DNA from: Proteinivorax tanatarense
GTDB taxonomy: Bacteria; Bacillota; Proteinivoracia; Proteinivoracales; Proteinivoracaceae
Length of the DNA stretch: 64,000 nt
Direction of reading: 5' to 3'
Assembly (NCBI RefSeq): GCF_040267685.1
Contig: NZ_CP158367.1
Location: 1,612,001 to 1,676,000, forward strand
Shown here: positions 32,179-49,075 of the stretch, piece by piece
Layout: each line of letters starts with the position of its first letter
How positions within the stretch are numbered: the first letter of the stretch is position 1
The notes under the pieces: generated by a model
What the model saw: only the letters and a program-made list of their open reading frames with translations
The model's database searches: none
Told to the model about the DNA's origin: nothing
Made by a program: the position numbers and the translations under genes

Positions 32179-33771
32179 TTAGCTTCTACCTAATAATTTT
32201 CTAAAAAATTCAATCGACTTCCAAGCTCGGCTTTTAAGTACACTGTTATATTTTTTAAGTACTCTATTATATTTTTTTAATAATTTCCTGTACTCCTTCT
32301 TTAAACTAATATTTTCATATATTAACCTGTCTACCTGTTTTTCAGTTAGATTTGGTCTTATAATTTCAAAACCTAGTTTAACAGGTCTTGAGTACTTTTC
32401 GCAGGTAACATCTTGAACATTTGCTTTTCGAGGAGCAGTATCAGAAATTATCTTATCGAACTCTTCTAGGTTATTTTTCTTTCCTGATACAATAATTTGA
32501 ACACTTCCGTTTTCTATATTCTGCACAAAACCATTTAACTGAAGTGCCCCAGCTTTTTTTACTACCCAATTTCTGTAACCAACCCTTTGTACTTTTCCAC
32601 ATATGGTATACTTAAAAGCATTATAATTCAATTTAGGGGCCGATGGGATTCCCACCTCTTTTATCAAGTTATTCTCTAATGGCTTAAGTACACTTTTAAA
32701 ATCAAAATAGCTATTATTTATTTTTTTGTTATTAACTGTTTCTGGAAAATAATAATCTATAATTGCAGAAGGTACATCTTGTGCAGTTCCTGACTCTGGA
32801 AATGTATGCATGCTAATTTGAGCTTTTGAGTTAATCTCTAATACATATCCTATATCACTTTTTAAGTCTGCCACAATGTCAACAGCCCCTTGGTGTAACC
32901 CCGGCACAGCATTAATAGCATCTACAGCAAGTTTTTTAACATTTTCTGTAAGTTCCGATGTTATCTCTGTCGGCTCCCCTCCTGAAGAAACGTTACTCTT
33001 CTCTCTTAGGTTTATTCTTTCTCCTTTTTCGGGAATATACGATAAAGTTATATTTGTCTTTTTCAAATGTTTTTTTAAATCTCTATCTATTTTAATTAGT
33101 CTACCATGGGTATAAGGATTTTGCTTTCGTTTTTTATTTTTTTCGGCAATCAACTGTTTGACTGTTAATTTTCCATCTCCGCAAACAAACGCAGGCACTC
33201 TAGTAACTGCTCCAACAACTTTATCACCAATAACATATATGCGATAATCGCTTCCCTGAACATATTGCTCAACAATGATGTCCTCTACTTTTAAATTATC
33301 TGTTAATGTTGTAATAGCTTCAACAAGCTCCTCGTTGTTAGTGATATTAGTAAAAACTCCCCTTCCAGCACTACTGTCTACGGGTTTAACAACTAGTGGA
33401 TAGGGAGTGTTTTTTAATTGTTGTAGAATTGATTCTAGGCTATCATTTTTATTAAATTTATATCCCATTGGGATACAAACGTTTCCCTTTTTCAAGTATT
33501 TTTTTGTTAATGCCTTATCTAAACAGATATTAGTAGCTTCTTTAGTAACTTTGCCTCCTCGTGACACTGCAAATTCATATTTTTTTTCACCGTTACTTAT
33601 TGTGTACCTTACTCTCCTTTTTCCATCAATATAAATATTATAGAATTTCACCTTTAAACCTCTACGCCAAGCTTCTAAAGCAATCGTATACATACACAAT
33701 TTGTATCCATATGCCTCTTTAGGAATGGAATTTTCTAAATTCGGCAACCATTTTCTTTCATTATTTTCCAT
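32179..33771 (-). CDS. ATP-grasp ligase fused to an acylphosphatase domain
   Basis: A 530-residue protein. Residues 85-345 are an ATP-grasp domain of the cyanophycin-synthetase type: V-V-K-P-V-D-S-S-A-G-R-G-V at 127-139, V-E-Q-Y-V-Q-G, R-V-P-A-F-V-C-G-D-G-K-L-T-V at 191-204 and metal site L-E-I-N-S at 311-315. Residues 387-472 are an acylphosphatase with both catalytic residues: Arg400 in R-V-G-Y-R and Asn418 in F-V-Q-N. Residues 480-520 are a basic coiled coil. ATP-grasp enzymes join a carboxylate to an amine through an acyl phosphate; the attached acylphosphatase could hydrolyse that intermediate or be a binding module. It is the outermost gene of the teichoic-acid-like module. Substrate unknown. 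Confidence 0.85.
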   Translation of the reverse strand: MENNERKWLPNLENSIPKEAYGYKLCMYTIALEAWRRGLKVKFYNIYIDGKRRVRYTISNGEKKYEFAVSRGGKVTKEATNICLDKALTKKYLKKGNVCIPMGYKFNKNDSLESILQQLKNTPYPLVVKPVDSSAGRGVFTNITNNEELVEAITTLTDNLKVEDIIVEQYVQGSDYRIYVIGDKVVGAVTRVPAFVCGDGKLTVKQLIAEKNKKRKQNPYTHGRLIKIDRDLKKHLKKTNITLSYIPEKGERINLREKSNVSSGGEPTEITSELTENVKKLAVDAINAVPGLHQGAVDIVADLKSDIGYVLEINSKAQISMHTFPESGTAQDVPSAIIDYYFPETVNNKKINNSYFDFKSVLKPLENNLIKEVGIPSAPKLNYNAFKYTICGKVQRVGYRNWVVKKAGALQLNGFVQNIENGSVQIIVSGKKNNLEEFDKIISDTAPRKANVQDVTCEKYSRPVKLGFEIIRPNLTEKQVDRLIYENISLKKEYRKLLKKYNRVLKKYNSVLKSRAWKSIEFFRKLLGRS

Positions 33772-33975
33772 ATTTCACTCTCCTATACATCGTAAACTTA
33801 TTATACATTTATATTATCTAATTTAATAATTATATCATAAGTGTAAGCTTCGTTTTATATTTTTTATTCCTAAAAGACGAATGTCAATTGTTGAGCACAA
33901 AAACTTAATAAATCTATTATTGTCTTTAAATAATGATTCATGCCCAAACCAAAATTCCCTTAGTTCCACTCTTAC

Positions 33976-34009
33976 ATAAAAACTAGGACAAGTTTTACCC
34001 TCGTCCTAG
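33976..34009 (-). terminator. Terminator of the CDP-glycerol transferase genes
   Basis: CTAGGAC (33983-33989) and GTCCTAG (34003-34009) are exact complements with a 13-base loop, followed on the minus strand by TTTTTATG. The rest of the 527-base gap 33772-34298 is AT-rich and shows no gene or repeat. Confidence 0.78.
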
Positions 34010-34298
34010 AAACTTATTATATAGATATCTAGTTGTTCACAGTATAGTTCAATATTACTTGCCTGTCTTACAGCCCAACTTACTTTACATTCTACTAAAC
34101 CCTGTAGACTTTTAATTGTATCTAGATATATCAACACTTCCACTTTTAGTTGCATCAGCAGCTAATACGCTGTTCCCCTATCCTTAGCCCTGTAGTTGTA
34201 CATAATAACGTCAGAAACATTTGTTCTTTTACAGCAGCTACAGCTCCGCTTAATAAACATGTCTCTTCCTTTTAAGCAGCCGTTATAGAAAAATTATT

Positions 34299-35558
34299 CT
34301 ACCCTTTTGTACTCTGGTAGTTGCCTTGTTGTGATTTGAGTTTGTACTGTATGTGGGCGTTTTTAAGAATCGTATTTATTATTTTTTGGCAACTTTTTCC
34401 TTCATCATACATCATAGCTTTTTGTTTTATTTGCTGCCTTTGCACTTTATAACTATCTTCTTTTAATTGTTCATCAATAGCATCTAGTGTTTCTGCTAGA
34501 TTTCTAGTTATTGGTCCTGCTGCTAGTTGCTCTAGGCTAAAGAAAAATCCTCTGTCGCTATTTTTATACATATCAAAATCATATGCAAAGTGGATTATTG
34601 GTCGGTCTAGCAGTAAATATTCTAGATAACAACTAGAGTAGTCAGTTATTAGCATATCGCTAATTAGCAAAAGTTCTTGGGTTTCTTCATCACTGTCAAT
34701 GATATAAGTGAACTGATTGTTAGATTGGTTGTTCTTTTTACATTTGTCTTTAAAGTGTTTTTTTTCTATGATAATTGTATCATTACTTGATAATATTTTT
34801 TGTAGGTTTTGCTTGCATCGATGATCTATATCCCCAAAACTGAAGGTTTTTTGCTCCCTAAATGTAGGTAGATATAATACTATTTTTTTGTCTTGTGGAA
34901 TATTATATTTGAAAAAGTATTTATGTTTTAAAGACTGCTTAAATTGCTCTGTATTTTTTGTTAACAAAAAGTCATTTTTAGGCTGTCCACTTAGGATAAT
35001 CCGCTCTGCTGTAATTCCGTTGTTTTGAAATGTATAGAGCATTTTTTGAGTATTAAGGTCTGAAGATGAAATAAAGTAATGGTATTGTTCGAAACTGCCA
35101 CTCCCTAAAAGGTAGTAGAACTTGCTTGCAGGTGACATTTTTTTGGAAGCAAGGGTATTTTTCAGCCCAAATCCGTGCCACAGCTGAACAATAGTAGCCC
35201 CTTTAAGCAGATTTAACGTTGATATATCTCGATATGTGTTGCAAATAAAAGCATAACTTGAGGTTAGGCTATAGTAGAGACATTTGGGTGTGTTGTATTG
35301 CACAAAGTTTATGTTTGGATGATCTAGGATTGGACTATCTCTTAAATGTTTACGACCGCACCAAATTATTTCGTAGTCATCATTATCCTTTATATACTCT
35401 AAGAAAAAGCGGGAATTGTCCGCTATTTTGTGACCACTCCAGGAGCCTAAAATTACTCTATTGGTTTTTCTTTTTGAAAAGCCGCTGAGGTTGTAGAATA
35501 TTGTGTTTACAATGGCACTAGTTAGTATAGCGACTTCTTTTATTGCTTTTTTAAACAT
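34299..35558 (-). CDS. CDP-glycerol glycerophosphotransferase family protein (TagB/TagF-like)
   Basis: About 419 residues from an ATG at 35558 that follows AAAGGAG; a longer frame from a GTG at 35654 adds 32 residues without a good ribosome site. The family (PF04464) is shown by G-S-W-S-G-H-K-I-A-D-N-S-R, V-Q-L-W-H-G-F-G-L-K, S-G-Q-P-K-N-D-F and L-I-T-D-Y-S-S-C-Y-L-E-Y-L-L-L-D-R-P-I. It would add glycerol-phosphate or a similar polyol-phosphate to a lipid-linked acceptor at the inner membrane face. A basic N-terminal segment and helix may mediate membrane binding. It lies directly after a second member of the family. Confidence 0.9.
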   Translation of the reverse strand: MFKKAIKEVAILTSAIVNTIFYNLSGFSKRKTNRVILGSWSGHKIADNSRFFLEYIKDNDDYEIIWCGRKHLRDSPILDHPNINFVQYNTPKCLYYSLTSSYAFICNTYRDISTLNLLKGATIVQLWHGFGLKNTLASKKMSPASKFYYLLGSGSFEQYHYFISSSDLNTQKMLYTFQNNGITAERIILSGQPKNDFLLTKNTEQFKQSLKHKYFFKYNIPQDKKIVLYLPTFREQKTFSFGDIDHRCKQNLQKILSSNDTIIIEKKHFKDKCKKNNQSNNQFTYIIDSDEETQELLLISDMLITDYSSCYLEYLLLDRPIIHFAYDFDMYKNSDRGFFFSLEQLAAGPITRNLAETLDAIDEQLKEDSYKVQRQQIKQKAMMYDEGKSCQKIINTILKNAHIQYKLKSQQGNYQSTKG

Positions 35559-35654
35559 TTTCACTGGCTCCTTTCGTGGATTGAGCAATAGTTGAGCACG
35601 TGGCGTAAGGTCAAGGGCAAAATTATAATTGACAATGGGTTTCCACTTTTCCAC

Positions 35655-36905
35655 TTACAAGAAATTTTCCTTAATATAGTGCCATAGCCGTTGGGATGAA
35701 TTCCCGTCGGCATAATTGAAAAATTGTCTTTGCATTTTTAACCTTTCTTCCTTAAACTGATCTTTTTCGTTAAGCGTTTTGTGGATTTCTCTTTGTAATT
35801 GTTCTTGAGAATATACTTTGGCACCAGGAGTTGTTTTATCATAATCTAAGAGCAGTGCTCTTTCTCCATCTATATATTCCTTGCTATCGTAAGGGTAGAA
35901 CACTATTGGCTTGTTTAACAATAGATAATCAAGATATATTGAGGAGTAATCGGTTATTAGCAGATCTGTTATTGCTAAAAGAGGATAAATATCAGCATAT
36001 TTATCATACTCTATTATGTTTTCTAAGTTTTTTGTTTGTAGGTTACATTGATGTTTATAGTGCAGTTTTAATATAAATTTTATATTGTACTTTTTGACAA
36101 ACTCATTAAGCTTATCCAAGTCTAGCTGATATAGATCATTTTGATGCTTTCTCCAAGTTGGAGTGTATGTGACTAACTTATAGCCCTCTTCTTTATATCT
36201 TTTGTATTTCTCTATGGAGGATCCATCATAGGTTAACCCTCGTTTTAGAAAATTTTCATTGAAAAATATGTCGTTTCTAGGAAGGCCATTTACTAGCATA
36301 TCTTTATAGTTAAATGCCTTCCCCCTAGTTTGAACTTGATAATCCGAGCTAAGAGCTACTAAGTCGTAACATATACTTTCTTTTCTTACAGCTTTATGAA
36401 GTTTAGATAGTTTTTGATAGGTTGGTTTTAAAAGGCCGATTGTTTTTAAACCTGTACCGTGCCAGATTTGAACTTTTTTGGCTTTTATTAGAAAAAAAGG
36501 TTTAAACCGACTAGCCCACTCATTGCCATCTACGATTACCACTTTTACTGTTAAAAGTTTAAATAAAGTCGAAATTTTAGGGTACTTCCATACCTTAAGA
36601 TTGTTTTGATTCAACTTATCAAATACTTTTCCTTTATCTGTCAAAAATATAAACTCAGTTTCCTGATGTTCAAGATCATTCAAGTATAGAAAAAGGTATT
36701 TAAGATTTCCTTCAAAATCGCCGAACCTACTAGTTAGAACAACTTGGTTTTTTTTGGGGACAATCAATGAAAAAGGAGCTATGAAAACATAGCCAATTAT
36801 ATTTAGCAAAACTTTCAGGGTTATTTTTATGATTTGCCTAGCAGTTTTATATACTTTTAAAATCGCTGCGTTGTGTTTTAATGTTCTTTTCAACTTTCGA
36901 AACAT
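35655..36905 (-). CDS. CDP-glycerol glycerophosphotransferase family protein (TagB/TagF-like)
   Basis: A 416-residue member of PF04464: [32 protein letters not shown] and [20 protein letters not shown]. The N-terminal 45 residues include a basic amphipathic stretch and a hydrophobic helix, as in TagF-type enzymes that sit on the membrane. Together with the adjacent homologue it may split the work as primase (TagB-like) and polymerase (TagF-like). No CDP-glycerol synthase (TagD) is in the window, so the activated polyol may come from elsewhere or be a different one. Confidence 0.9.
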
Positions 36906-36963
36906 ATGGTTCCTCCTGTTATTTCATATATTATAGGCATAGCGTTTTTAAAGAGCAGCCAAA

Positions 36964-36993
36964 AAGGGTAAAGTTTTGGTAAACCATACCCTT
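36964..36993 (-). terminator. Possible terminator after the 936-residue gene
   Basis: AAGGGTA (36964-36970) and TACCCTT (36987-36993) are exact complements; on the minus strand the stem runs into TTTTT. It lies six bases past the stop of the 936-residue gene and may reduce read-through into the TagB/TagF-like genes. Confidence 0.6.
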
Positions 36994-36998
36994 TAGCT

Positions 36999-39809
36999 TT
37001 AAGTTGTTTGTGAGTTTTTACTTTTTTTTGTGCTTACATACTCTGCAAGACATAAACTTCCTACTACTTTTTCTATGACGTTTATCGATGAACCTTTTAG
37101 CGGAAAATGGAATGTCGATATTGAAGGGGTGGTGTCAATTGTCGAGATGGCCCACTTTTGTTCTTTAGCCGACCTTTTTGGATCAGGAATTATCATTTTA
37201 ACAACGCCATATTTCAAACCGGGTATAGCTTTGACCGCTTCCACTGCATGTTCTTTAAATTCTTTGTGTAGCAAATTATCTATGTTAACTGTTTCTCCAC
37301 CAAGTTGATAGCTAACGTCATCTTCTAAAACAACTCTCTTACCTCTTTCCAAAACATCGCCTGAATTTATACCTAGCATAGTAAAAGTATCTGTCAAGGT
37401 ATCAATTTCAATAGCCTGGTCCACATACACTGGATTCTTAGCTCTAGATACATTTTTTTGCTCTATCAGTTCCCTCACAGTAGAAACTCCATCGCCAATT
37501 ATAGCAGTTGGCTCTTTGATTATTGAACCTATAGCCTCGCCTGCTGCTACCATAATATTAACATCCCAACCTTTAGTTAATTGTTCAAGGTATATATACT
37601 TTACTCCTTTAGACTTAGCTTGTTTTAATGATTTCTTTAACTCTTTAACACAATTAACTTTATTAGGTTCTAGTTCAGTAATATTAACACTACTGATGAT
37701 ACACGAGGCATAAGCATCAAAGTATTTTAGTATATTCTCTTTCTGGTTAACTTTAAACTTTGTTCCTCGAGGTGTTGGCAAACAATGATTCGTAATAATT
37801 TTTTTAAAAAGAAACTTGTTATTACACGCATCATCACTAAACATCGAACTAAATCTCATGGAGCTAACTCCTGTTAATTCATCCTTTTTAAATTTAATCA
37901 AATTACCAGAATAGAAGTTAACCTCAAAGCCTAGACGTGTTAATTCTTTAAAAAAGAGGTGTTGATCTAAGTCTAGCTCGCTATTTTCTAACCAGCTATC
38001 AACTTTATGCTCAACATAATCAAACCCTCTTGTTTCTAAATCTGCTTTAGAGTCTAATAACTCTCCTCTTTGCTGCGCATCTTTATTAATAATTTTTTGT
38101 TCATCTATTACTTCACCTTGTGGTCCTTTGTAACACCATAGCTTGTTTAAAAAGAAATCTATATGATGCTTGCGACCAGACACAATTACATCCGTATGCG
38201 AACGCGAGTTGTCTACTTTTAGGTTAACTAACAATTCATTAGCAATGTTGTTTGCCCAATCTTCAAAAGAACAATCTAACTTTAGAGGTAGACGAACTAG
38301 TTTTTCAACGGCTAAATAGCAATTATCATCAGTTTTTTCTGGAAAAAGATAGTTTAATAATGGCTTGGCTATATTGGTCGGCTTGCCATAGATAGGATAA
38401 TGAGGTCCACCAAAAGAAGCTCTAGAGTTTGCCTCTAAAATACAACATTTTTGCTTCGAACGAGGCAAATCTATTCTTTGAGCCAATATATCAATTCCCC
38501 AATAGTCATTTATTCCAAAGGAATTAGCCGCCTCTTCTGCAAGTTGCATCAAATCAGGGTGAATTTGCTCAGTTATAACGATGCCATCTGCGCCCGCTCC
38601 TACATTAGCTTTAAGATGTAAAAATACTAGTTCCCCACTCTTGGGGATAGTTGTTAAAGAATGTCCTTGTTTTGATAGAAAGCTTTCGGTGTAATCACTT
38701 GCTATAATTGGCGTCCTGCTAAAGCGAGGATTTTTAGTTCTCTCTTGATTTTTTTCATTAATCAAGTCTGCTACTGTTTTTTTGCCATCCCCCATAACGT
38801 TTGCAGGGACACGTAAAAGAGCAGCTTTAGCAACGCCGCCAATAACTATGACTCTAATATCTACTCCCTCAATAAGCTCTTCCAAAATAATACTTTCATG
38901 TCTATTTTTTGCATAGTCCCAGGCAACCTCAAGCTCTTCTTCAGTACGAACATCTACAGTTATTCCGAAGCCTGAAGATCCTTCTACAGGTTTAACTACC
39001 AGCGGATACGTGCATTGGTTGAGATACTTCTTAGCATCATCTAAGTTCTCAAAAATTCTACCTAAAGGTACTGGCAAACCATTATTGTGTAGAAACTCTT
39101 TTGTTAGATGTTTATTATCTGTAATTGCTCTAACTGTAGTAGATACTTTTGAGTTCAAAGTACTTTGAAAACCTAACGCTTTAATAGGAGAAACAATATA
39201 GTTGCACGTAGCAAAACGCGTAATAAATAAATTCTTCTCTTTAGCAGCTTCATATAGTTCACCAGAAACACTAAAGTTCCCCTCGGGATACTCATTTGCT
39301 TTTTTTACAAGATCCCCTAAATGTTTAATAACTTTTTCATTTAAATTAGCAACTTCTTGAGACCAGTTATTTTGATCATTGATGTTTTCATTTACTTCTA
39401 ATTTTATTGGTTTGTTAAACCAGGTTTCTATTATATTTTCAACTCTAGACCTACTAGTACCTTTCCATGCAAGCTCAACTACTTTTTCTATTGCTTTTCC
39501 GCATCCAATAAGCACTACCTCTATATTTTCTTTATTTTTGTTTCGTATTGCAACCTTAACACCGTTTGAATTTGCCTTACGTCTTAATCTTCCTTTATAG
39601 CCTACACAGGTAATTTTTCCTCTTATCGAAAGCTTAACTGCTGAATTTTTATTACCTGGAACCCTTTTAGTTATCCAATATTTTGCAGGTGATTTTTTAT
39701 ATGGATTTAACCCTAACTCCTTAGTTCCTATTGTTGTACAAAGCATCCAATAATAAAGGAATTTCAGAAATTGCACTATTTTTTTTGGTTTTATTTTTTT
39801 TAATTTCAC
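36999..39809 (-). CDS. Tandem ATP-grasp protein with degenerate acylphosphatase-like domains
   Basis: A 936-residue protein, unusual for the family. Residues 58-140 are acylphosphatase-like (G-K-I-T-C-V-G-Y-K), but the catalytic Arg is Lys72. Residues 220-490 are a complete ATP-grasp: V-V-K-P-V-E-G-S-S-G-F-G at 271-282, R-V-P-A-N-V-M-G-D-G-K-K-T-V, metal site L-E-A-N-S at 458-462. Residues 505-562 look like a second acylphosphatase without its Arg loop. Residues 610-925 are a second ATP-grasp that keeps the shape (I-G-D-G-V-S-T-V) but has lost the Lys-Pro loop (I-I-S-S-V-N) and the metal ligands (S-T-I-D-T-T), so it is probably inactive and structural. GTG start. It lies between the TagF-like genes and the 553-residue ATP-grasp gene. 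Substrate unknown. Confidence 0.82.
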   Translation of the reverse strand: MKLKKIKPKKIVQFLKFLYYWMLCTTIGTKELGLNPYKKSPAKYWITKRVPGNKNSAVKLSIRGKITCVGYKGRLRRKANSNGVKVAIRNKNKENIEVVLIGCGKAIEKVVELAWKGTSRSRVENIIETWFNKPIKLEVNENINDQNNWSQEVANLNEKVIKHLGDLVKKANEYPEGNFSVSGELYEAAKEKNLFITRFATCNYIVSPIKALGFQSTLNSKVSTTVRAITDNKHLTKEFLHNNGLPVPLGRIFENLDDAKKYLNQCTYPLVVKPVEGSSGFGITVDVRTEEELEVAWDYAKNRHESIILEELIEGVDIRVIVIGGVAKAALLRVPANVMGDGKKTVADLINEKNQERTKNPRFSRTPIIASDYTESFLSKQGHSLTTIPKSGELVFLHLKANVGAGADGIVITEQIHPDLMQLAEEAANSFGINDYWGIDILAQRIDLPRSKQKCCILEANSRASFGGPHYPIYGKPTNIAKPLLNYLFPEKTDDNCYLAVEKLVRLPLKLDCSFEDWANNIANELLVNLKVDNSRSHTDVIVSGRKHHIDFFLNKLWCYKGPQGEVIDEQKIINKDAQQRGELLDSKADLETRGFDYVEHKVDSWLENSELDLDQHLFFKELTRLGFEVNFYSGNLIKFKKDELTGVSSMRFSSMFSDDACNNKFLFKKIITNHCLPTPRGTKFKVNQKENILKYFDAYASCIISSVNITELEPNKVNCVKELKKSLKQAKSKGVKYIYLEQLTKGWDVNIMVAAGEAIGSIIKEPTAIIGDGVSTVRELIEQKNVSRAKNPVYVDQAIEIDTLTDTFTMLGINSGDVLERGKRVVLEDDVSYQLGGETVNIDNLLHKEFKEHAVEAVKAIPGLKYGVVKMIIPDPKRSAKEQKWAISTIDTTPSISTFHFPLKGSSINVIEKVVGSLCLAEYVSTKKSKNSQTT

Positions 39810-39871
39810 TTTGCTACCCCCAAAAATTCAAATAATAATATTGATATAAAACTGACTACAAACACTGTTCT

Positions 39872-41533
39872 TTATCTGATAATCCTAAACCCATTATCTT
39901 TATAATTTTCTCCCCATTTAACAGTTATTGATTTAACTTTTGCTTTTTTAGGGCCTATATAACACTCTCTAACAAGCCATTCTATATCTAAAGCTCTGCC
40001 TTTTAAAACAGCTGTTACAGTTCTATCATGATTATTCTGTACCCATCCACTTACCTTTAGAGATTTTGCCTTTGTCTGCAGCCAGTTTCTGTAACCTACA
40101 TTTTGTACTTGACCACTAACCGTTAACTCTATTGTCTTTTCATTTTTTAAAATAAACCAACTTAATGCTTTTTTAAAAGTAGAACCTTCATATAAATCAA
40201 TCTTACCTTGGCCAAATTGTCCCTCACCAATAACACCATTGTATAACACTTGTAAAGCTTTGTCAGCATGGTTTGCCATAGCTTGTCCTGTTTTTGTCTG
40301 GCCTATGGTTTTCCCATGTGCTCTTTGAATAAAGCAAATTCCTGCTTGATTGTTACCCTCTAAAAGAACAGGTCCTTTATCTGTTATTACAATATCCCAA
40401 CCAACTACTAATCTATATGGGAAGTTCTTATGAACATCTTTTACTAGAGAAAGGGCCTCTGCCCAATAAGGAATCTTCACACCTCTTATTTCTAAATCGT
40501 CACTTAACTTATCCATCCTTGTATTAGAAACAGATACGTCCGAATGAATAGCTGGGCCTAACGTTCCAGTGTTCATGTTTATAGGGGCTACCATCCCCCC
40601 TGCACTAGCATTATCAACAACTGAATTGGTATCAATAGAAAATCTAAGCATGGCCTGGTCTAGCTCAATATGCCCAGCTTCATCTACATAAGAAAGCACC
40701 CTGATTGTTGGAGTAGCATTTTTTCTAAACACCGCCAACTTAGGGTGAGGTAAAATGAGTGGCTGAACTAATATTGATCCGCTCTTATGGTTTTGGGCTA
40801 AGTTTTTTAAATAAGCTTTCAGCTGATTTTTCGATAAAGTATCCCCTTGTGGATTTTGGTAGCGCCCATTTACCCAGTTCCAGATCTCTGCTCCCTGCCC
40901 CTCGTTGTCTATATTAGGCTTGCAGAACAAACTTTCTTCCGGCAATTCTTTATTTATATACTTACTATGATGTGCGATTATAGTCCCATCAGATAGGATC
41001 TCCTGAATTATAGGCACAACAGGAACTTTATTGTTGATGCAAAAATTAGAAAACTCCACTTTTTTTCCCAGCGAAACCACTTCATATTGATTATTTATAT
41101 ATTGTCCATATTTAGTCAATATTTTATAGGTTCCATTTTTTATGGCCCCTTTATTTACAAAATATCTAGCCTTCTGTAGTCCCTCTTTTGCGTAAAACTC
41201 TTGTAGATAATAATTCTCGGCATTAATCGAATAGAAGAAAGAGAGATAAAATTGCTCCATATATTGTCTTACCGCTGTTTTTTCACTTTTTAAGGTTTTT
41301 ATATCTACTTTCTTTGACCATTTGTTAATGTCTTTTAAAATAAATAAAGGCGAAAGTAAAAAATATATTACTACCTTAAGTCGACTTTTTAACGTTCTGC
41401 AGTGCTGCCAATAGCATACTGCGTAGGTGCGATGAATAATGTCTGCAGCATTTTTAGGCCGTCTTAGCAAGGAAAAGACAAGCAAGTTCGGTAACATATT
41501 AGGTCTTTTATTCTTTGTGCGTTTTTTTCCCAT
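39872..41533 (-). CDS. Sugar-transfer-associated ATP-grasp protein with C-terminal acylphosphatase
   Basis: A 553-residue protein. A basic N-terminus with one hydrophobic helix (residues 52-66) is followed by an ATP-grasp of the sugar-transfer-associated type (PF14397), about 120-435: F-C-K-P-N-I-D-N-E-G-Q-G-A at 203-215, T-I-R-V-L-S-Y, S-A-G-G-M-V-A-P-I-N and metal site L-L-E-G-N-N-Q-A-G at 390-398. Residues 466-553 are an acylphosphatase with both catalytic residues, Arg482 in N-V-G-Y-R and Asn500 in W-V-Q-N. This ATP-grasp family is a different branch from the cyanophycin-type one in the neighbours, so acylphosphatase domains were joined to two kinds of ligase in one locus. Probably adds an amino acid or other amine or acid to the exported polymer. 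Confidence 0.85.
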   Translation of the reverse strand: MGKKRTKNKRPNMLPNLLVFSLLRRPKNAADIIHRTYAVCYWQHCRTLKSRLKVVIYFLLSPLFILKDINKWSKKVDIKTLKSEKTAVRQYMEQFYLSFFYSINAENYYLQEFYAKEGLQKARYFVNKGAIKNGTYKILTKYGQYINNQYEVVSLGKKVEFSNFCINNKVPVVPIIQEILSDGTIIAHHSKYINKELPEESLFCKPNIDNEGQGAEIWNWVNGRYQNPQGDTLSKNQLKAYLKNLAQNHKSGSILVQPLILPHPKLAVFRKNATPTIRVLSYVDEAGHIELDQAMLRFSIDTNSVVDNASAGGMVAPINMNTGTLGPAIHSDVSVSNTRMDKLSDDLEIRGVKIPYWAEALSLVKDVHKNFPYRLVVGWDIVITDKGPVLLEGNNQAGICFIQRAHGKTIGQTKTGQAMANHADKALQVLYNGVIGEGQFGQGKIDLYEGSTFKKALSWFILKNEKTIELTVSGQVQNVGYRNWLQTKAKSLKVSGWVQNNHDRTVTAVLKGRALDIEWLVRECYIGPKKAKVKSITVKWGENYKDNGFRIIR

Positions 41534-41581
41534 AACTAAGGCACCTTCTTTCTCTTTGTGCAGTTGTTTGAAGTTCTTATA

Positions 41582-42361
41582 CTATTGAGCGTTAATTATT
41601 TCTAGTTCTGATGGAGTGTCCATTTCGCTCCAACTATTTAATTTTACTTCAATTAAATCAACCTGGAAATCTGACTTAATCACATTTAAAATATTATGCC
41701 AATGATATTTCTTCAGCGTAGTCTTGTTATCCATAAGCAGACGATCCATCTTCTTTAGCAGCACTTTCTTGCTATCGGCACCTTTAACACAAAAAACACC
41801 CGCTGATTTAACACTAGTATCGTTATGATGTATATGTTTTCCAACTTCTATAAAATTGTGTTGGTTATCTAACAGTACTTTCATATCATCATTTTCCAAC
41901 TCATTAGTTTTACTAGTACATAAACCTGCAACTAAATTTTCTATTGTTTGTTTTTCATCAAACCATAGACCTAGCTGTTTTGTTAAAGACTCATCTACTA
42001 TAGTATCGCCATTTACAACAACAACATTTTCACTTTTTGATTGTAGCAAGCCTAGCCACAATGAAATAAGAGGACCGGCAGTATTGTAAAATGGATTGTA
42101 AATACAATTGTTTTCTAGGTTTAGTTTTTTTACTTCTTCATGGACCTTATCTGCCCCGTGACCTATAACTGGTATAACATGCAATCTAACGTTGAGGGTA
42201 CTAAAGGCTTTAACTATATGACCAAAAATACTTATTCCATCGTCGCATCGAAGCAGACTCTTAGGACGATCGATAGTAAGTGGTCGCATCCTTCGTCCTT
42301 CACCAGCCATTAACACTATTAGATCTAGATTTTTCTTGTTTTGTCCCTTGATTTTACCCAT
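41582..42361 (-). CDS. Sugar-phosphate/polyol-phosphate nucleotidyltransferase
   Basis: A 259-residue NTP transferase. The signature is V-L-M-A-G-E-G-R-R-M-R-P-L-T at about 16-29, then R-P-K-S-L-L and V-V-N-G-D-T-I for metal. It is smaller than GalU and closer to LicC- and GlmU-N-type enzymes, which make CDP- or UDP-activated groups. In this locus it could supply the activated unit for the TagF-like transferases. The nucleotide and substrate cannot be read from sequence. It lies 48 bases before the ATP-grasp gene and 33 bases after the ABC ATPase gene. Confidence 0.85.
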   Translation of the reverse strand: MGKIKGQNKKNLDLIVLMAGEGRRMRPLTIDRPKSLLRCDDGISIFGHIVKAFSTLNVRLHVIPVIGHGADKVHEEVKKLNLENNCIYNPFYNTAGPLISLWLGLLQSKSENVVVVNGDTIVDESLTKQLGLWFDEKQTIENLVAGLCTSKTNELENDDMKVLLDNQHNFIEVGKHIHHNDTSVKSAGVFCVKGADSKKVLLKKMDRLLMDNKTTLKKYHWHNILNVIKSDFQVDLIEVKLNSWSEMDTPSELEIINAQ

Positions 42362-42394
42362 AAAGAACCCTCCTGTTAGTTCCTAATCATTGGT

Positions 42395-43876
42395 TTAGCT
42401 TTTTTTGCCTTGGTTTACATGCGCTGTATATCTCTCAACAGCTTCTTTAGGACTTCCGTCAAACATAAGATTACCTTTATTTATCCAAATAGCCCTTGTA
42501 CATATTTTTTCTACAAACTTCATGTTATGAGTAACGACAATAACAGCTTTTGCGTCAGTAATCATCTCTTGAATTCTTTCGCTAGCTTTTGCTCTAAATT
42601 CCATATCCCCGGCGCTTAAAGCTTCATCAATTATAAAAAGTTCCGGCTGAACAGCAGCTGCGATACTAAAACCTAGCCTAGATCTCATGCCACTGGAATA
42701 ATGTTTTACAGGCTTATTTATGTGTTTTTCCAAATTGGCAAACTCAATAATTTCATCTCTTAGTTGAAAAATTTCTTCCTTTGATATTCCCATCATCATC
42801 CCGCTTAAGATAATATTATCCATTCCTGTTAGATGTCTGTTAAAACCTGCTCCTATACTTAAAAGAGCTGTGGTGGCTCCTTCTGTATAAAGACTTCCTT
42901 CATCGGGGCGATAAATACCACTTATAGTTCGGCATAATGTGGTTTTCCCTGCACCATTATGACCTATAACACCAAGTATATCTCCTTCTCTTACTTTAAA
43001 GCTAACATCTTTTAACGACCAAAAATCCTTTTTTCCTATTTTAAATTTAATGCTCAAATTTTTAGCAACTACAACTTTGTTTTCCTTCACAGCACTTTGA
43101 GTTTCTTTTAATTCTACAACTTTTTTCTTCTTTTTTCTTTTGGGAACAGACTCCCGATACTTTTTCGCCACTTCTTCTGGATGACCTTCAGCAGCAATTA
43201 CACCACTATCAATCCAAATTGCTCTGGTGCAGTTTTTTTTAATAAACTTAATGTTATGGCTTACAATGATCACCATTTTTGCTCGTGAAACAAGATCTTT
43301 AATTTTTTTTGAAGCCCGTTTGGCAAACTCTAGGTCGCCAGTGTTAAGAGCCTCATCCAAAACTAATGTCTCAGGGTTAAGCATTGCCGCAATGCTAAAC
43401 CCTAACCGCGCTCTCATTCCACTAGAATAATTTTTAATAGGTTGATGTATAAAATCACCTAGCCCAGAAAACTCAAGAATTTCTTGATAGAATTCTTTTA
43501 CTTCTGACCTTGCCATCCCCATCATCATTCCATTAAGGTATATATTGTCTTTACCTGAAAGCTGTCTATTAAATCCAGCACCCATAGATAATAGGGCAGA
43601 CACCTTGCCATCTACTTTTATAGTACCCTTATCAGGTTTTAGAATTTCCGCAATAGTTTTACAAAGGGTTGATTTACCTGCACCATTTGAACCAATTATC
43701 CCTAAAACTTCACCTTTATATCCATTAAAACTGATATCTTTTAACGCCCAAAAATCTTTATTTGATTTGTCACCGGTTAAAAGATCATAACTTAGAGTTC
43801 TGATATCTTCTCTTTTGAGTCTAGAATCATATTTTACTCCTATATTTTTTGCTTCTATAACAATATCTTGTTTCAT
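42395..43876 (-). CDS. Polymer-export ABC ATPase with two nucleotide-binding domains (TagH-like)
   Basis: A 493-residue protein made of two similar TagH/Wzt-type ATPase domains. Domain 1 has Walker A G-S-N-G-A-G-K-S-T at 62-70, signature Y-S-S-G-M-R-A-R-L at 150-158 and Walker B L-V-L-D-E-A at 171-176. Domain 2 has G-H-N-G-A-G-K-T-T at 305-313, Y-S-S-G-M-R-S-R-L at 393-401 and F-I-I-D-E-A at 414-419. A lysine-rich linker (245-253) joins them. TagH and Wzt normally have one domain and work as dimers, so this is a fused dimer. All catalytic motifs look intact in both halves. It pairs with the permease encoded 14 bases upstream. Confidence 0.93.
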   Translation of the reverse strand: MKQDIVIEAKNIGVKYDSRLKREDIRTLSYDLLTGDKSNKDFWALKDISFNGYKGEVLGIIGSNGAGKSTLCKTIAEILKPDKGTIKVDGKVSALLSMGAGFNRQLSGKDNIYLNGMMMGMARSEVKEFYQEILEFSGLGDFIHQPIKNYSSGMRARLGFSIAAMLNPETLVLDEALNTGDLEFAKRASKKIKDLVSRAKMVIIVSHNIKFIKKNCTRAIWIDSGVIAAEGHPEEVAKKYRESVPKRKKKKKVVELKETQSAVKENKVVVAKNLSIKFKIGKKDFWSLKDVSFKVREGDILGVIGHNGAGKTTLCRTISGIYRPDEGSLYTEGATTALLSIGAGFNRHLTGMDNIILSGMMMGISKEEIFQLRDEIIEFANLEKHINKPVKHYSSGMRSRLGFSIAAAVQPELFIIDEALSAGDMEFRAKASERIQEMITDAKAVIVVTHNMKFVEKICTRAIWINKGNLMFDGSPKEAVERYTAHVNQGKKS

Positions 43877-43890
43877 TTATCACACCTCAG

Positions 43891-44667
43891 TTAAAGGACC
43901 TTAATAATCTTGTGCTCATTCTTATTATAAAAATAAAGCATAAAAACTATAACAGCAATAGAACCCAATGCTAAAGCAATAAGCTGCGAAAAATTAGGCA
44001 GTTGCCCATACATCAAAACATTCCTATAGGCATTTAACAAATGGGAAAAAGGATTTACATCGCTTATCCATTGGTACTCAGCAGGTAACCTTCCTACTTC
44101 CCAAATTACAGGAGAAGCATATCTCATTATGCGCATAAGGTGAGTTATGATGTTTTCTATATCTCGTATAAAAACACAAACATAACCCATAAATAAAGAT
44201 ATTGCAATATGAAATAACAACTGAACTAGCACAATAAATGGTAGCCAGACAACTTCTGTGCCTGGAATAATACCGTAAAAAAGTAGAAAAACTGCTATAA
44301 CAACTAGTCCAAATAGAAAGTTTATTAACTGAGTTATACTCTCGCCTATTGGCAATATAGCTTTGGGCAGATAAACCTGAGTTATAATACCCGATTTTGA
44401 TGAAATAGATTTAGCTGAACCGCTAACCGTAGACTTAAACCAGCGAAAAACCACTAATCCTATTACTAAAAAAGCTGGGTAGTCCGGTCCACCTCTTTCT
44501 AAAACAATTACTACTAAAAAGTAATAAACAAATACGCTTAAAAGAGGATCTAAAAGCCACCAAAAATATCCCAAAAATGTATTTCTATGTTTTGACTTTA
44601 ATCCAGAAATAATAAGATAGTAGAGTAAATCTTTTCTTTTACATATTGCTTCTATATATTTTTTCAT
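43891..44667 (-). CDS. ABC-2 type polymer export permease (TagG-like)
   Basis: A 258-residue membrane protein with six hydrophobic segments, of the TagG/Wzm/KpsM type. It opens with an amphipathic region (I-C-K-R-K-D-L-L-Y-Y-L), followed by F-L-G-Y-F-W-W-L-L-D-P-L-L-S and the late V-N-P-F-S-H-L-L-N-A-Y-R-N element. It would export the finished lipid-linked polymer as a dimer energised by the two-domain ATPase. It is the first gene of the leftward module. Confidence 0.92.
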   Translation of the reverse strand: MKKYIEAICKRKDLLYYLIISGLKSKHRNTFLGYFWWLLDPLLSVFVYYFLVVIVLERGGPDYPAFLVIGLVVFRWFKSTVSGSAKSISSKSGIITQVYLPKAILPIGESITQLINFLFGLVVIAVFLLFYGIIPGTEVVWLPFIVLVQLLFHIAISLFMGYVCVFIRDIENIITHLMRIMRYASPVIWEVGRLPAEYQWISDVNPFSHLLNAYRNVLMYGQLPNFSQLIALALGSIAVIVFMLYFYNKNEHKIIKVL

Positions 44668-44769: not shown

Positions 44770-44796
44770 CAAAAATCTCTACCAAATGGCAGAGAT
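44770..44796 (-). terminator. Intrinsic terminator, leftward
   Basis: ATCTCTACC-AAAT-GGCAGAGAT (44775-44796, one mismatch) is followed on the minus strand by TTTTTG. It shields the TagGH module from upstream transcription. Confidence 0.8.
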
Positions 44797-45225
44797 GTCT
44801 CCTTAATGTATTGCCCATCTCTCCCCCATCTTTATATTATATCATAAAAATAAAACTAGTAAATTAAATTTAATTAAATCTGTCTATGCTGGCTCTAGGA
44901 AAGATAATATTAAATACTACAACTATAAATATAAAGCAATTTTTAGTTAATAAATTTTTGATAAAGTAAAAGCTAAGATACATCTACCCTATCTAACCCT
45001 CATATTATGGCAAGGAAGCGTAGTTCAGTACAAAAATTGATTATGAATCTGTGTGTTGGTTCTATACTTAAACACCCTTTGCAAAAAGCCCTATGTTTTA
45101 AGTGTACAGTGGTATATTAAAGTGAAACACAACAATACATATGTAAATGGTTCAAAGTAAAGTTTTAAACCATAAATTTTTGCATAAAAAGATAACCAAG
45201 ATTGGCATAGCTAGTAAGATTGAAA

Positions 45226-45273
45226 AATATTAAAAAACAGGGGCTAGTTGATTTACCCCTGTTTTTTAATATT
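45226..45273. terminator. Strong terminator after the metallopeptidase gene
   Basis: AATATTAAAAAACAGGGG pairs exactly with CCCCTGTTTTTTAATATT around a 12-base loop; A- and T-runs are in the stem so it can work on both strands. It lies 123 bases past the stop of the CWB2 metallopeptidase gene. Confidence 0.85.
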
Positions 45274-45395
45274 TTATTTAATTTTTTCACTAAAAATATC
45301 CTAAAAAAATTATTGTAATAGGGTTACTGCAGAGCACCTATAAACGCCAAAATTGCTATCAGAAATTGATATCCAATACATTAATAACTTTAAGT

Positions 45396-47411
45396 TTATT
45401 TTAATAATTTCTGTAGCCTTAATTTGGCCTCCTTGTCAATAACTGCTTCTCCCCCTAATATATATCCTCTACCTCCTGACACCTCTTGGATATATTGTTC
45501 AACATATGCTGGGATAATGCTGTCATTAATCATCAGAACAGGAGCTTCTCTTTTTGCTGCAAGTCCAGCACCTGTTAAAGCATCAGCAAAGTTTTCTCCA
45601 GTGGCTACATAAGCATCGGTAAAATCTCCATCAGTAAAATAATCAACAATTTCTATTGATGTTTGATACCTGTTATTACCAGCTAGCCTACTCACATTTA
45701 TACCCATGCCTTCAAGTTCAGCCTCGACTTCTTTAGGCACGACACTTTCTCCTCCCACAATAATTACATTCTCCACTCTCCAGTCTTCAATAGCTTCTCT
45801 AGTAAAATCTGGTAGCGAACCTGAATTTCTGCTAAATAACACAGGATAAGAAAGCTGTGCTGCAAAAGGAGCCACTGCTAGTGCATCAGGGAAGTCTAAT
45901 CCTGTAGCTAAAACCACAGTATCTTTTTGTCCCCCCAAATTTTCACCTATCTTTGCAGCTGTATGATACCTGTCAACTCCAGCAATACGCTCTATATTAA
46001 AACCTAGTTTTTCAAGTTCTGTCTCAACTTCTTTCCCAACAGCGTTAACACCACCTAGTATATAGACAGTATCCACTCCTAATCTCTTTAATTCATCTCC
46101 TACAAAACGACTTAAATGGTTTTTGTGAGTTAATAAAATTGGGGCATCATAGCTATGTGCTAATGTTGTTCCTGACAGAGCATCAGCAAACTCAGAACCG
46201 TTAGCTAAAAAAGCTACTTTCGAACCATCTTGCCAACCTTCTTGTGAAACTGATATTGCAGTTTCAATCCGATTTCTCCCAGAGTATCTAGATAGATATG
46301 ATATGTATTGATCTAACTCATTAAAATCTATCGTTAGCTTTTCGGACCTATTCTTAACTCCCTCTTCGTTTTTTGAATACACCCAAAAATCATATTTTGA
46401 GTTTGTATTAAAGTTAATTTTATTAACTTTAAACCTTCTTTTGTTAGAGTCAGTTTCATAAGTTCGCGACATTACTGTTGAGCCAGATTCTGCCCAATAA
46501 AGTGAATATTCCAAATCAAAAGTCTCATCATCCCACGATTTGGTTGAATCAAAAGTTAGAAACGTCCAGTTAAAATGATCTTTAACTTTGGATAAAGTAA
46601 TTTTAGGCTGTGTTGGAAAATTAACTACTTCGTTTTCATAACCAGATACATCAACCCAATACTCTTGCAATCCTGTTACATTTGGGGGATATTCAATAAA
46701 GTAATTCCTATGAGGCTCTTTTCGTCCTAGAGGACTACCTAGTAAGACTCTATAATCTTCTGCTGCTATTTCCTGAGGCGCCCAATGCCACTCACCATTG
46801 TTAATCTTGCTATATTGTTCTAAGTTTCTAATTTGTCCATATTTAGTATCCACAAAAGCTTCATCAATAGAATTTAAACCATTTTCAAACTCATAAAAAT
46901 AACTAAAATGATGCCCGTATTCGTGTGATAAGGTTCCAGCCATTTGCTCAAAAGAAAAATCTTCAGCTCCATAAAGGCTAATATACCTATTATCAGCCAT
47001 AGCTAACCCATTAGGTGTAGATGTCCATGCAAGAAAATAATGACCTGCTACTCCTCTCCCCGCAGGAAAGTCACCATATATGTTTACATGAGATAGGTAG
47101 GATAACTCTTTTGAAATAGTGTTATTCATAAGCTCCTGGTAAACCATTTTAAGCTCCTTCTGAGACTCATATTCATCGGTAAAGCTCCTAATTTCAATAC
47201 CGGAAGGCCCCTCAAAAACTGATATAGGCTGCTCTTTTGTTTGTATCTTAAGATCATCTATTGATCCTTCAATAATAACTGAGGATTCCATTTTCATATA
47301 ATCTTTTTCGACGGTTAGCTCTTGATTTTTATTAGCCTCACTACCTTGCACAACCCCACTTAAACTGACAAATAAAACTAGAGTTAAAACAATACTAAAT
47401 AATTTTTTCAT
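45396..47411 (-). CDS. Secreted zinc metallopeptidase-like protein with three CWB2 wall anchors
   Basis: A 671-residue surface protein. Residues 1-24 are a signal peptide. Residues 90-240 contain a metallopeptidase-like site H-E-Y-G-H-H at 163-168 with D-E-A-F-V-D some 20 residues later. Residues 255-365 look like a fibronectin type III domain. From about 380 to the end are three CWB2 repeats (R-Y-S-G-x-N-R-I-E-T-A, S-E-F-A-D-A-L-S-G, Y-I-L-G-G type), which hold proteins on the wall polymer. Its ribosome site (GGGAGGGAG) is intact, but an insertion sequence ends 19 bases upstream of it, separating gene and promoter. Confidence 0.88.
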   Translation of the reverse strand: MKKLFSIVLTLVLFVSLSGVVQGSEANKNQELTVEKDYMKMESSVIIEGSIDDLKIQTKEQPISVFEGPSGIEIRSFTDEYESQKELKMVYQELMNNTISKELSYLSHVNIYGDFPAGRGVAGHYFLAWTSTPNGLAMADNRYISLYGAEDFSFEQMAGTLSHEYGHHFSYFYEFENGLNSIDEAFVDTKYGQIRNLEQYSKINNGEWHWAPQEIAAEDYRVLLGSPLGRKEPHRNYFIEYPPNVTGLQEYWVDVSGYENEVVNFPTQPKITLSKVKDHFNWTFLTFDSTKSWDDETFDLEYSLYWAESGSTVMSRTYETDSNKRRFKVNKINFNTNSKYDFWVYSKNEEGVKNRSEKLTIDFNELDQYISYLSRYSGRNRIETAISVSQEGWQDGSKVAFLANGSEFADALSGTTLAHSYDAPILLTHKNHLSRFVGDELKRLGVDTVYILGGVNAVGKEVETELEKLGFNIERIAGVDRYHTAAKIGENLGGQKDTVVLATGLDFPDALAVAPFAAQLSYPVLFSRNSGSLPDFTREAIEDWRVENVIIVGGESVVPKEVEAELEGMGINVSRLAGNNRYQTSIEIVDYFTDGDFTDAYVATGENFADALTGAGLAAKREAPVLMINDSIIPAYVEQYIQEVSGGRGYILGGEAVIDKEAKLRLQKLLK

Positions 47412-47443: not shown

Positions 47444-49075
47444 AGGCGATTGCAAAACTTCACAATGCCTGATATAAAAGCTTTTATATTAATAATCTCA
47501 AAGGAATCCCCCACTTTTTATCGAATTTATATAGTAATCAAAATACGCATTTGATTACATGAAAGGAGGAATATCCAATGAAAAAATACAAACAAATTTC
47601 TTTTGCTAACTTTAACCAAGAATTTGATGAGCTGTTAAAATCTAAGCAACCTACCTTAATTGAGCTATTTAGCGATTTCTTAGAAGTGGATGAAATCATC
47701 CCGGCTTCGTTTTATGATGCTTACTATTCATCGTTAGGTAGAAATAGAGACTATTCTTTGTCGTCTATGATATCTGCTTTAATTTTGCAAAAGATTCTCT
47801 CATTACCCCACACTAAAACTCTTCTAAACATTCTAGCTCTTTCCAAAGAGTTAAGAGATTTTTGTGGGTTTGACGATAAGTTGCCTGATCCAGCTCAATT
47901 CACTCGTTTTAAACAGAATTTTCTACCACACATTGAGCAGATGTTTCATAATTTAGTGGATGATACTGAGGCTTTATGTCATGATATCAATGATGATCTA
48001 GCTGACATCTTAATCTCTGATACCACGGGGTTTGAGGCCTTTGTTAAAGAAAATAACCCTAAGTTTTATGAAACGCTTCTAACCAGTGCAAAAAAGTATG
48101 CTAAAATTGAAAACTCTGTTAACCCTCATTCTCTTGCCGCAAGTAAGATGCCTAAAATGGCGTCTGCTAATAACGAGTTTAAGCTATCTCATTTAAACGG
48201 ACACTTTGGCTATTATCTTAAAACAAACGTTGTTACTAACGGGCTTGGCATTGTTAGACATATAGATTTTTATGATTTAGACTTAGAAACCATTTCTCCT
48301 GAATTAAAAGATGAGTATGATTCTAAAACTCTTATTCCCGTTTTAGAAAACTTTTTCAAAAAGCACCCTCTTTTAAAGTACAAGTACTTTCTTGGAGATG
48401 CTGGTTTTGACTCTTACGATAATTATCGCTATCTTTATTGCGATAAGAATATGATCCCAATTATTCCTTTAAACCAAAGGCGTAAATCTGACTTGCCATC
48501 TTCAGGCTTTACAGATGATGGCACCCCTACATGCCCTCACGATAGTTCATTAAAAATGACTTATGATGGTGTTGCCAGAGAAAAAGGAAGGGCTGATAGG
48601 GTTAAATTTAAGTGTCCTAAATCTAAAAAAAAAGAGTAAATGGTAAGCAAAAAAGCACTTTAGATTGTCAAAACCCTTGTACTTCTTCCTCTTATGGTCG
48701 TGTAACTTATGTGCCTATACACAAAAACTATAGACTTAATTGTGCTATCCCCAGAGACTCTGAGAAATGGAGTAACTTATATAAGGTTAGAACAATATGT
48801 GAAAGAGCTATTGCCCAGCTTAAACACTCTATGTCTCTTAGATCCTCTAAGCTTAATAATACCAAGACTTTAAAAGCTGATATATTACTAGCGGCTATTA
48901 CGCAGCTTACTGCGTTAACTGTTCTGCATAGAGCGAACAACACATCAGCACCTATGTCAATTAAAAACCTTGTAGCATAGACTGCTTATTTTCGCACCTG
49001 ATTCTTCTTAAAAATACATTTTTACATATTTTCGGTTGCTCTATTCTTTTTTAATTAACGCATTTTGCAATTACC
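47444..49075 (+). mobile_element. Insertion sequence, 1632 bases, DDE transposase with frameshift
   Basis: The element is bounded by 13-base direct repeats and has short inverted ends: GGCGATTGCAAAAC on the left (47445-47458) and, read inward on the minus strand, GGTAATTGCAAAAT on the right (49075-49062), with 11 of 14 bases matching. It contains one transposase in two frames. Family is IS1182/IS4-like by its DDE layout; I cannot fix the exact family without a search. It sits in the leader of the leftward CWB2 metallopeptidase gene and points away from it. Confidence 0.88.
47578..48980 (+). CDS. DDE transposase, two frames joined by a probable -1 frameshift
   Basis: The first frame (47578-48639, 353 residues) holds D-T-T-G-F-E-A-F and G-D-A-G-F-D-S-Y, the first two catalytic aspartates, and starts a Cys-rich segment. 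The second frame continues it with K-S-T-L-D-C-Q-N-P-C and ends with the C-E-R-A-I-A-Q-L-K helix carrying the catalytic Glu. The change falls in a run of nine A (48625-48633): slipping back one base reads A-G-A-G-T-A and joins the two exactly. Both halves are otherwise intact, so this is either programmed frameshifting, common in transposases, or a recent error. A GAAAGGAGGAA site precedes the ATG. Confidence 0.82.

Follow-up and report, generated by a model that had tools for sequence, protein, structure and literature searches.

The 64,000-nucleotide stretch of the Proteinivorax tanatarense genome analysed here (contig NZ_CP158367.1, positions 1,612,001 to 1,676,000; hereafter the window) contains, at 32179-44667, eight minus-strand genes in which three ATP-grasp ligases bearing acylphosphatase (AcP) domains stand among genes of the wall teichoic acid type (Table 1). 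A sequence-only reading had listed two TagB/TagF-like transferases, a TagGH-like exporter, a nucleotidyltransferase and ATP-grasp proteins of 530, 936 and 553 amino acids (aa) with AcP domains, and this list is confirmed by Pfam and NCBIfam profiles and by the coordinates, positions and sizes included. PF04464 transferases lie alongside a TagG/TagH exporter, as in a wall teichoic acid locus, and the exporter ATPase is recognized as TagH by NF010066 (410 bits, cut-off 320); the start codon of the 451-aa transferase is uncertain, its homologue in the sister species having 407 aa. The genes from TagG to the second PF04464 transferase form a single tightly packed block, and the earlier description of one leftward block holds that far; it probably does not extend to the 530-aa gene, which may be a transcription unit of its own because the 527-bp gap between it and the second PF04464 gene contains a hairpin resembling a terminator and a site resembling a promoter (33887-33859). 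Another terminator-like hairpin (44775-44796), possibly a leader attenuator, lies between a promoter-like site and tagG.

The 553-aa protein is a member of ATPgrasp_ST by profile and the 530- and 936-aa proteins give RimK/ATP-grasp_3 matches, all above curated Pfam cut-offs (31.4 bits for PF14397, 22.5 bits for PF00708); in the 3.09-Mb genome (G000), PF00708 matches only the AcP domains of these three proteins. The 530-aa ligase aligns with the cyanophycin synthetase (CphA) structure 7wac over residues 79-349 (E=4.2e-36), and its CphA/GshAB-type catalytic residues were read off its alignments rather than tabulated. The RVPAxVxGDGKxTV element previously noticed in two of the proteins is indeed there: the 530-aa protein has RVPAFVCGDGKLTV, the 936-aa protein RVPANVMGDGKKTV. 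In the structure model of the 553-aa protein (mean pLDDT 75.5) the AcP fold matches solved acylphosphatases (Foldseek, 1w2i, TM(target) 0.95) and the ligase domain finds LysX/ArgX and Ddl as its nearest neighbours; as a lone query against the genome contigs, this protein found no relative. Over-calling of AcP domains is ruled out for the 553- and 530-aa proteins and for the first AcP domain of the 936-aa protein by their PF00708 scores and the fold match, and membership in the cyanophycin synthetases was likewise rejected, there being no Mur-ligase-type M domain and a TIGR02068 score of 302.6 bits against a cut-off of 850.

The anatomy of the 936-aa protein is more elaborate than had been described. 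In a model built with 13 homologues (mean pLDDT 84.4, pTM 0.81) an N-terminal helix, for which a hydrophobicity scan hints at membrane binding without being decisive, is followed by AcP1, ATP-grasp 1, AcP2 and ATP-grasp 2, a plan shared by proteins of ~940 residues that we call tandem ligases. The AcP domain reported before is thus retained, and an AcP-like copy at about 500-574 and another ATP-grasp domain, both of them degenerate, must be added to it. Both sequence and fold place ATP-grasp 1 nearest to cyanophycin synthetases and GshAB (phmmer against the CphA structures 7lg5, E=1e-42, and 7ta5, E=4.4e-43), and all six of its catalytic positions (K, E, R, D, E, N) are kept in 13/13 homologues. 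In ATP-grasp 2, whose catalytic positions were assigned by eye from the alignment, the catalytic Lys and Asp are lost in all 13 and the first Glu alone is kept throughout, the remaining Arg, Glu and Asn being changed in nearly all homologues; of these three, L011:1019-3976 retains only the Arg and L007:12381-15215 only the Asn.

The acylphosphatase modules have fared unevenly. AcP2 of the 936-aa protein, which has no catalytic Arg, lies below Pfam detection, yet the matching region passes PF00708 in the homologues from genome G370 (introduced below), and comparison with intact AcP domains gives 97.2% in hhalign, a pairwise value obtained without database calibration. Both catalytic residues are present in 2 of 14 AcP1 copies and in no AcP2 copy, so that the AcP domains of the tandem ligases are, as read from their residues, mostly degenerate; the suggestion that these domains hydrolyse acyl phosphates can accordingly hardly apply to most copies, because the long proteins have for the most part lost the catalytic Arg or Asn. 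Both residues are retained in the ST-AcP proteins, i.e. the ATPgrasp_ST ligases with a C-terminal AcP, of genomes G004, G370 and G418, although their retention does not by itself establish activity; the G418 gene is split over two overlapping frames (L029:259-2093), by a frameshift or an assembly error.

Table 1. Genes, domains and signals of the locus, followed by other features of the window and by homologues elsewhere
Feature	Position	Strand	Remarks
TagG/Wzm-like ABC-2 permease, 258 aa	43891-44667	-	PF01061 (ABC2_membrane) 46.6 bits
TagH-like protein, 493 aa, two fused ATP-binding cassette (ABC) domains (double nucleotide-binding domain)	42395-43876	-	PF00005 in 2 stretches
NTP_transf_3 nucleotidyltransferase, 259 aa	41582-42361	-	PF12804 40.4 bits
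ST-type ATP-grasp ligase with C-terminal acylphosphatase, 553 aa	39872-41533	-	PF14397 137 bits, PF00708 68.9 bits
ATPgrasp_ST domain of the 553-aa protein, residues 141-410	40304-41113	-	PF14397
AcP domain of the 553-aa protein, residues 465-552	39878-40141	-	Arg482 and Asn500 present
Tandem ligase, 936 aa	36999-39809	-	helix-AcP1-ATP-grasp 1-AcP2-ATP-grasp 2
AcP1, residues 56-131	39417-39644	-	PF00708 41.8 bits; catalytic Arg replaced by Lys
ATP-grasp 1, residues 151-495	38325-39359	-	K273, E310, R333, D440, E459, N461 intact
AcP2, degenerate, residues 500-574	38088-38312	-	profile comparison and predicted AcP-like element order
ATP-grasp 2, catalytically degenerate, residues 605-920	37050-37997	-	homologous to half 1 and to CphA/GshAB
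TagB/TagF-type transferase, 416 aa	35655-36905	-	PF04464 (Glyphos_transf) 217 bits
TagB/TagF-type transferase, 451 aa	34299-35654	-	PF04464 222.7 bits
Terminator-like hairpin after the second PF04464 gene	33983-34009	-	10-pair stem and T tail
CphA-type ATP-grasp ligase with acylphosphatase and C-terminal tail, 530 aa	32179-33771	-	PF00708 71.3 bits
AcP domain of the 530-aa protein, residues 387-470	32362-32613	-	Arg400 and Asn418 present
UDP-glucose 6-dehydrogenase-like (Ugd-like) gene	14604-15776	-	about 17 kb from the locus
Fused O-antigen-ligase-like/GT4/WecG-TagA-type protein, 1027 aa	50814-53897	-	PF03808 210 bits
MnaA-type gene	57059-58216		WecB above cut-off, family level
TagO-type gene	59514-60539		PF00953, family level
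Double-ABC TagH homologues	L004:10999-12480, L008:10519-12027, L010:3118-4650		

The gene set recurs in other genomes. A PF00708 search of 399 genomes spread evenly across the phylum, followed up where there were several matches or unusual frame lengths, found AcP domains in frames of ~500-970 aa, i.e. these ligases, in the present genome, in one of the same genus (G004), in one of the same class and another family (G187) and in one of another class (G370). An alignment model of the tandem-ligase N terminus (A3) matched only these four in what is apparently the same sample, and the system is therefore rare (4/399 genomes, 3/267 genera). Within the class of G370 the tandem ligase occurs in 4 of 98 genomes (G370, G415, G418, G461), which brings the carriers to seven genomes in two classes, the loci of G415, G418 and G461 being known from short contigs. 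Three contigs of metagenome-assembled genomes (MAGs) that A3 matched in a separate scan agree in length or layout with G415:C311, G418:C68 and G461:C82 and were counted once. The absence of co-occurrence elsewhere had been named as evidence that would refute the proposal; when the neighbourhoods were examined gene by gene, AcP/ATP-grasp fusions accompanied TagGH and/or PF04464 in all seven carriers, the recurrent set being an ST-type ligase (usually ST-AcP), one to three tandem ligases, and TagGH and/or PF04464. Three further genomes of the same family as P. tanatarense (G001-G003) have no AcP domain at all, and the absence of a free acylphosphatase is therefore not specific to carriers.

The related loci add components that are missing here. 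That of G004 comprises TagG, TagH, a nucleotidyltransferase, ST-AcP, two tandem ligases, two PF04464-like transferases and TupA. The G187 locus has an ST ligase without AcP, two tandem ligases, a fusion of PGA_cap with a CphA-like grasp domain, a glutamate racemase that is the second of its genome, a further grasp protein, PGA_cap-TupA, AcP-TupA, TagG, another ST ligase, TagH, GalU, Ugd and LytR-CpsA-Psr; at L008:3282-6623, G187 encodes a 1113-aa protein in which DUF362, ferredoxin, PGA_cap and TupA-like domains are joined. In G370, phosphonate genes, PF04464, PGA_cap-TupA, two tandem ligases and ST-AcP are followed by a PF04464-like gene, a nucleotidyltransferase, TagH, TagG and LytR-CpsA-Psr. 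Among the short MAG contigs, L011 and L013 show a TagB/TagF-like gene and then tandem ligases, L012 tandem ligases only, L029 an ST-AcP gene adjoining a TagB/TagF-like gene, and L028 two 530-type homologues adjoining TagB/TagF-like (PF04464) genes. TupA-like PF14305 proteins are hence encoded in the G004 and G370 loci, and two of them, one carrying a fused AcP, in that of G187. TagG lies close to TagH in 4/4 fully assembled loci, in each of which a fused double-ABC TagH (493-510 aa in G004, G187 and G370) goes with one TagG gene. The phosphonate genes of G370 (L009:2924-6512) encode a phosphoenolpyruvate (PEP) mutase with cytidylyltransferase, a thiamine pyrophosphate enzyme and an iron-dependent alcohol dehydrogenase, and their position suggests that the polymer of that organism may bear phosphonate. 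A TagD-like glycerol-3-phosphate cytidylyltransferase gene is found in neither the P. tanatarense nor the G004 genome; the G187 and G370 loci have weak relatives, that of G370 lying within the PEP mutase protein.

TagO-, TagA- and MnaA-type genes, recognized at family level, lie at 50.8-60.5 kb of the window, and the fused 1027-aa protein among them, which scores 163 bits with TarA NF041710 (cut-off 350), is a possible linkage-unit enzyme. The Ugd-like gene (G000:C1:1626613-1627767; 632 bits with NF011631, cut-off 757) is a possible source of uronic acid; GalU and Ugd-like genes also stand beside the G004 and G187 loci, and an Ugd-like gene is about 36 kb from the G370 cluster. The TagO/MnaA/TagA-type and Ugd-like genes of the window thus fit a polymer of the wall teichoic type for which uronic acids would be available. 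Two proteins with CWB2 domains, which bind wall polymer in clostridia, are encoded on either side of the polymer genes (45396-47411 and 60773-63445). A perfect 20-nt inverted repeat with a 12-nt loop (45224-45275) lies just downstream of a CWB2 gene, a transposase-like open reading frame (DUF772/DDE, 47578-48639) lies between a CWB2 gene and an acetyltransferase gene, and an Rfam search of the window found no RNA.

Taken together, TagGH, PF04464, the uronate-supply genes and the second racemase of G187 are best read as pointing to a wall polymer to which amino acids or peptide are bound as amides. We consider it somewhat probable (roughly 0.55) that a glycopolymer of the wall teichoic type is synthesized and exported here, with amino acids or a peptide, short or poly-acidic, attached through amide bonds, and that it is a variation on the teichuronopeptide (TUP). 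Gene context and recurrence fit this earlier proposal, and it is from them that we infer the polymer and any amide bond. The comparison with TUP, which has been described as poly-gamma-L-glutamate together with polyglucuronic acid (PMC8153356), is strengthened, since the related loci hold TupA-like ligases, PGA_cap, a second glutamate racemase and UDP-glucuronate genes. The same findings do not support the contention that the enzymes are simply different from those of TUP, because the TupA and ATPgrasp_ST families belong to the set, TupA being the teichuronopeptide protein. That no TupA-like protein had been seen proves true of the whole P. tanatarense genome, for which a plain TUP locus is therefore ruled out, and three related loci do have TupA.

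A plausible course of synthesis would begin on a lipid carrier, where the TagB/TagF-type transferases assemble the backbone. A carboxylate, of a uronate or of a peptide C terminus, would be converted by the ATP-grasp enzymes into an acyl phosphate and coupled to an amino group. The G domain of cyanophycin synthetase activates the C-terminal carboxylate of the peptide in this way before adding Asp (PMC9427784), and the TupA-like domain of Cj1438C is reported to amidate glucuronate of the Campylobacter capsule at its C6 carboxylate (PMC11800379). The 936-aa protein, with its single active ATP-grasp site, and the 530-aa protein might elongate the peptide in the manner of that G domain, the 553-aa ST-type ligase serving a different step, perhaps the first attachment. 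Degenerate ATP-grasp 2 and the degenerate AcP copies may act as binding or scaffold modules, intact AcP domains could handle acyl phosphate, for example by clearing mis-activated intermediates, and TagG/TagH would export the product. AcP could in this scheme serve for proofreading, for recycling or for binding.

Several observations weigh against such a polymer. P. tanatarense has no TupA-like PF14305 protein in its genome, its sole PGA_cap gene and sole glutamate racemase both lie outside the locus, and Pfam detects no Mur-type ligase domain in the block. AcP is missing from both ST proteins of G187 and degenerate in both 530-type proteins of L028, and acyl-phosphate editing is therefore not a constant feature of the system. 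The acceptor could, moreover, be something other than the polymer.

The alternatives are taken in order of decreasing probability. What the ligases attach to a uronic acid of the polymer through an amide bond may be small amines or amino alcohols instead of amino acids or peptides, a possibility that we regard as unlikely. The TupA-like amidoligase Cj1438C is reported to act in this manner on glucuronate, yielding a capsule that carries serinol or ethanolamine amides (PMC11800379), and Ugd-like and GalU genes do accompany the loci; ATP-grasp 1 and the 530-aa ligase are, however, nearest to the peptide-elongating CphA and GshAB and not to TupA, and the presence of several ligases per locus and of the G187 racemase suggests amino-acid chains. 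It is less probable still that the ligases make a separate peptide polymer, such as a poly-glutamate capsule or a cyanophycin-like reserve, and share only a neighbourhood with the wall-polymer genes: CphA-type active sites, PGA_cap fusions and the second racemase of G187 would be in keeping with it, but in seven genomes the ligase genes are intermixed with those for TagGH and PF04464 or stand near them, the ATPgrasp_ST and TupA families take their names from sugar-polymer settings, and the Mur-type domain of CphA is not present. Quite improbable is a role for AcP like that in HypF, where this domain acts on carbamoyl phosphate and the carbamate released serves a partner active site (PMC6022934), so that here the ATP-grasp partner would carbamoylate or otherwise modify the polymer; despite this precedent and the intact residues of the ST-AcP proteins, Pfam finds no YrdC- or Kae1-type domain in the ligases, their ATP-grasp residues match amino-acid ligases and most tandem AcP copies are degenerate. 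It is hardly credible that chance or low significance accounts for the AcP matches and that the ligases are ordinary amino-acid ligases: AcP2 alone scores weakly in single sequences, whereas PF00708 is well above cut-off in three proteins, conserved elsewhere and matched in fold (TM 0.95).

Returning to the amino-acid- or peptide-bearing wall polymer, ATP-grasp amide ligases in surface-polymer loci are already a known kind of system, and the locus is most likely a new, teichuronopeptide-like variant with ligases of the cyanophycin synthetase type. With the TUP system of Alkalihalobacillus halodurans C-125 it and its relatives share ATP-grasp ligases in a wall-polymer setting, uronate supply genes and, in three related loci, TupA-like proteins; it differs in lacking TupA in P. 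tanatarense and in its AcP fusions, CphA-type tandem ligases, TagGH and PF04464. CphA1 and CphA2 provide, in their G domain, the closest solved relatives of ATP-grasp 1 and of the 530-aa ligase, with conserved catalytic residues (and, for the 936-aa protein, by fold too), but here AcP domains take the place of the Mur-type M domain, the second ATP-grasp is degenerate and the neighbourhood is that of a wall polymer. Relative to ATPgrasp_ST members, the 553-aa protein adds its C-terminal acylphosphatase and an N-terminal helical region; relative to Cj1438C and its kin in Campylobacter jejuni, the proposed chemistry, ATP-grasp amide formation on a glycopolymer, is alike, whereas the ATP-grasp subfamily is different and the locus is of Gram-positive type. 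Wall teichoic acid TagB/TagF/TagGH loci have PF04464, TagG, TagH and, as in the window, TagO/TagA/MnaA-type genes in common with it, but not the fused double TagH, the absence of TagD from the genome or the inserted ATP-grasp ligases; HypF likewise has an AcP domain within a multidomain enzyme dealing with acyl phosphate, but the AcP partner here is an ATP-grasp ligase, not a YrdC or Kae1 domain.

In the literature searched, we found no description of the AcP/ATP-grasp fusions, of a tandem ligase with one active and one degenerate ATP-grasp, or of their combination with TagGH, an earlier mention in a 2009 amidoligase survey being possible. The more far-reaching proposal, that this is an undescribed pathway in which CphA-like ligases with AcP domains, some for proofreading and some for binding, make template-free peptide chains on a teichoic-type backbone, is one that we hold only tentatively. 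To our knowledge, peptide-bearing wall polymers have so far been described for a few alkaliphilic bacilli; if the present reading is true, they would extend to other Bacillota with a different set of ligases, and a defined gene kit would be at hand for locating them. The AcP-ligase fusions in turn pose the testable question of whether there are ligases with an acyl-phosphate proofreading domain of their own, for which nature offers intact and degenerate AcP versions for comparison.

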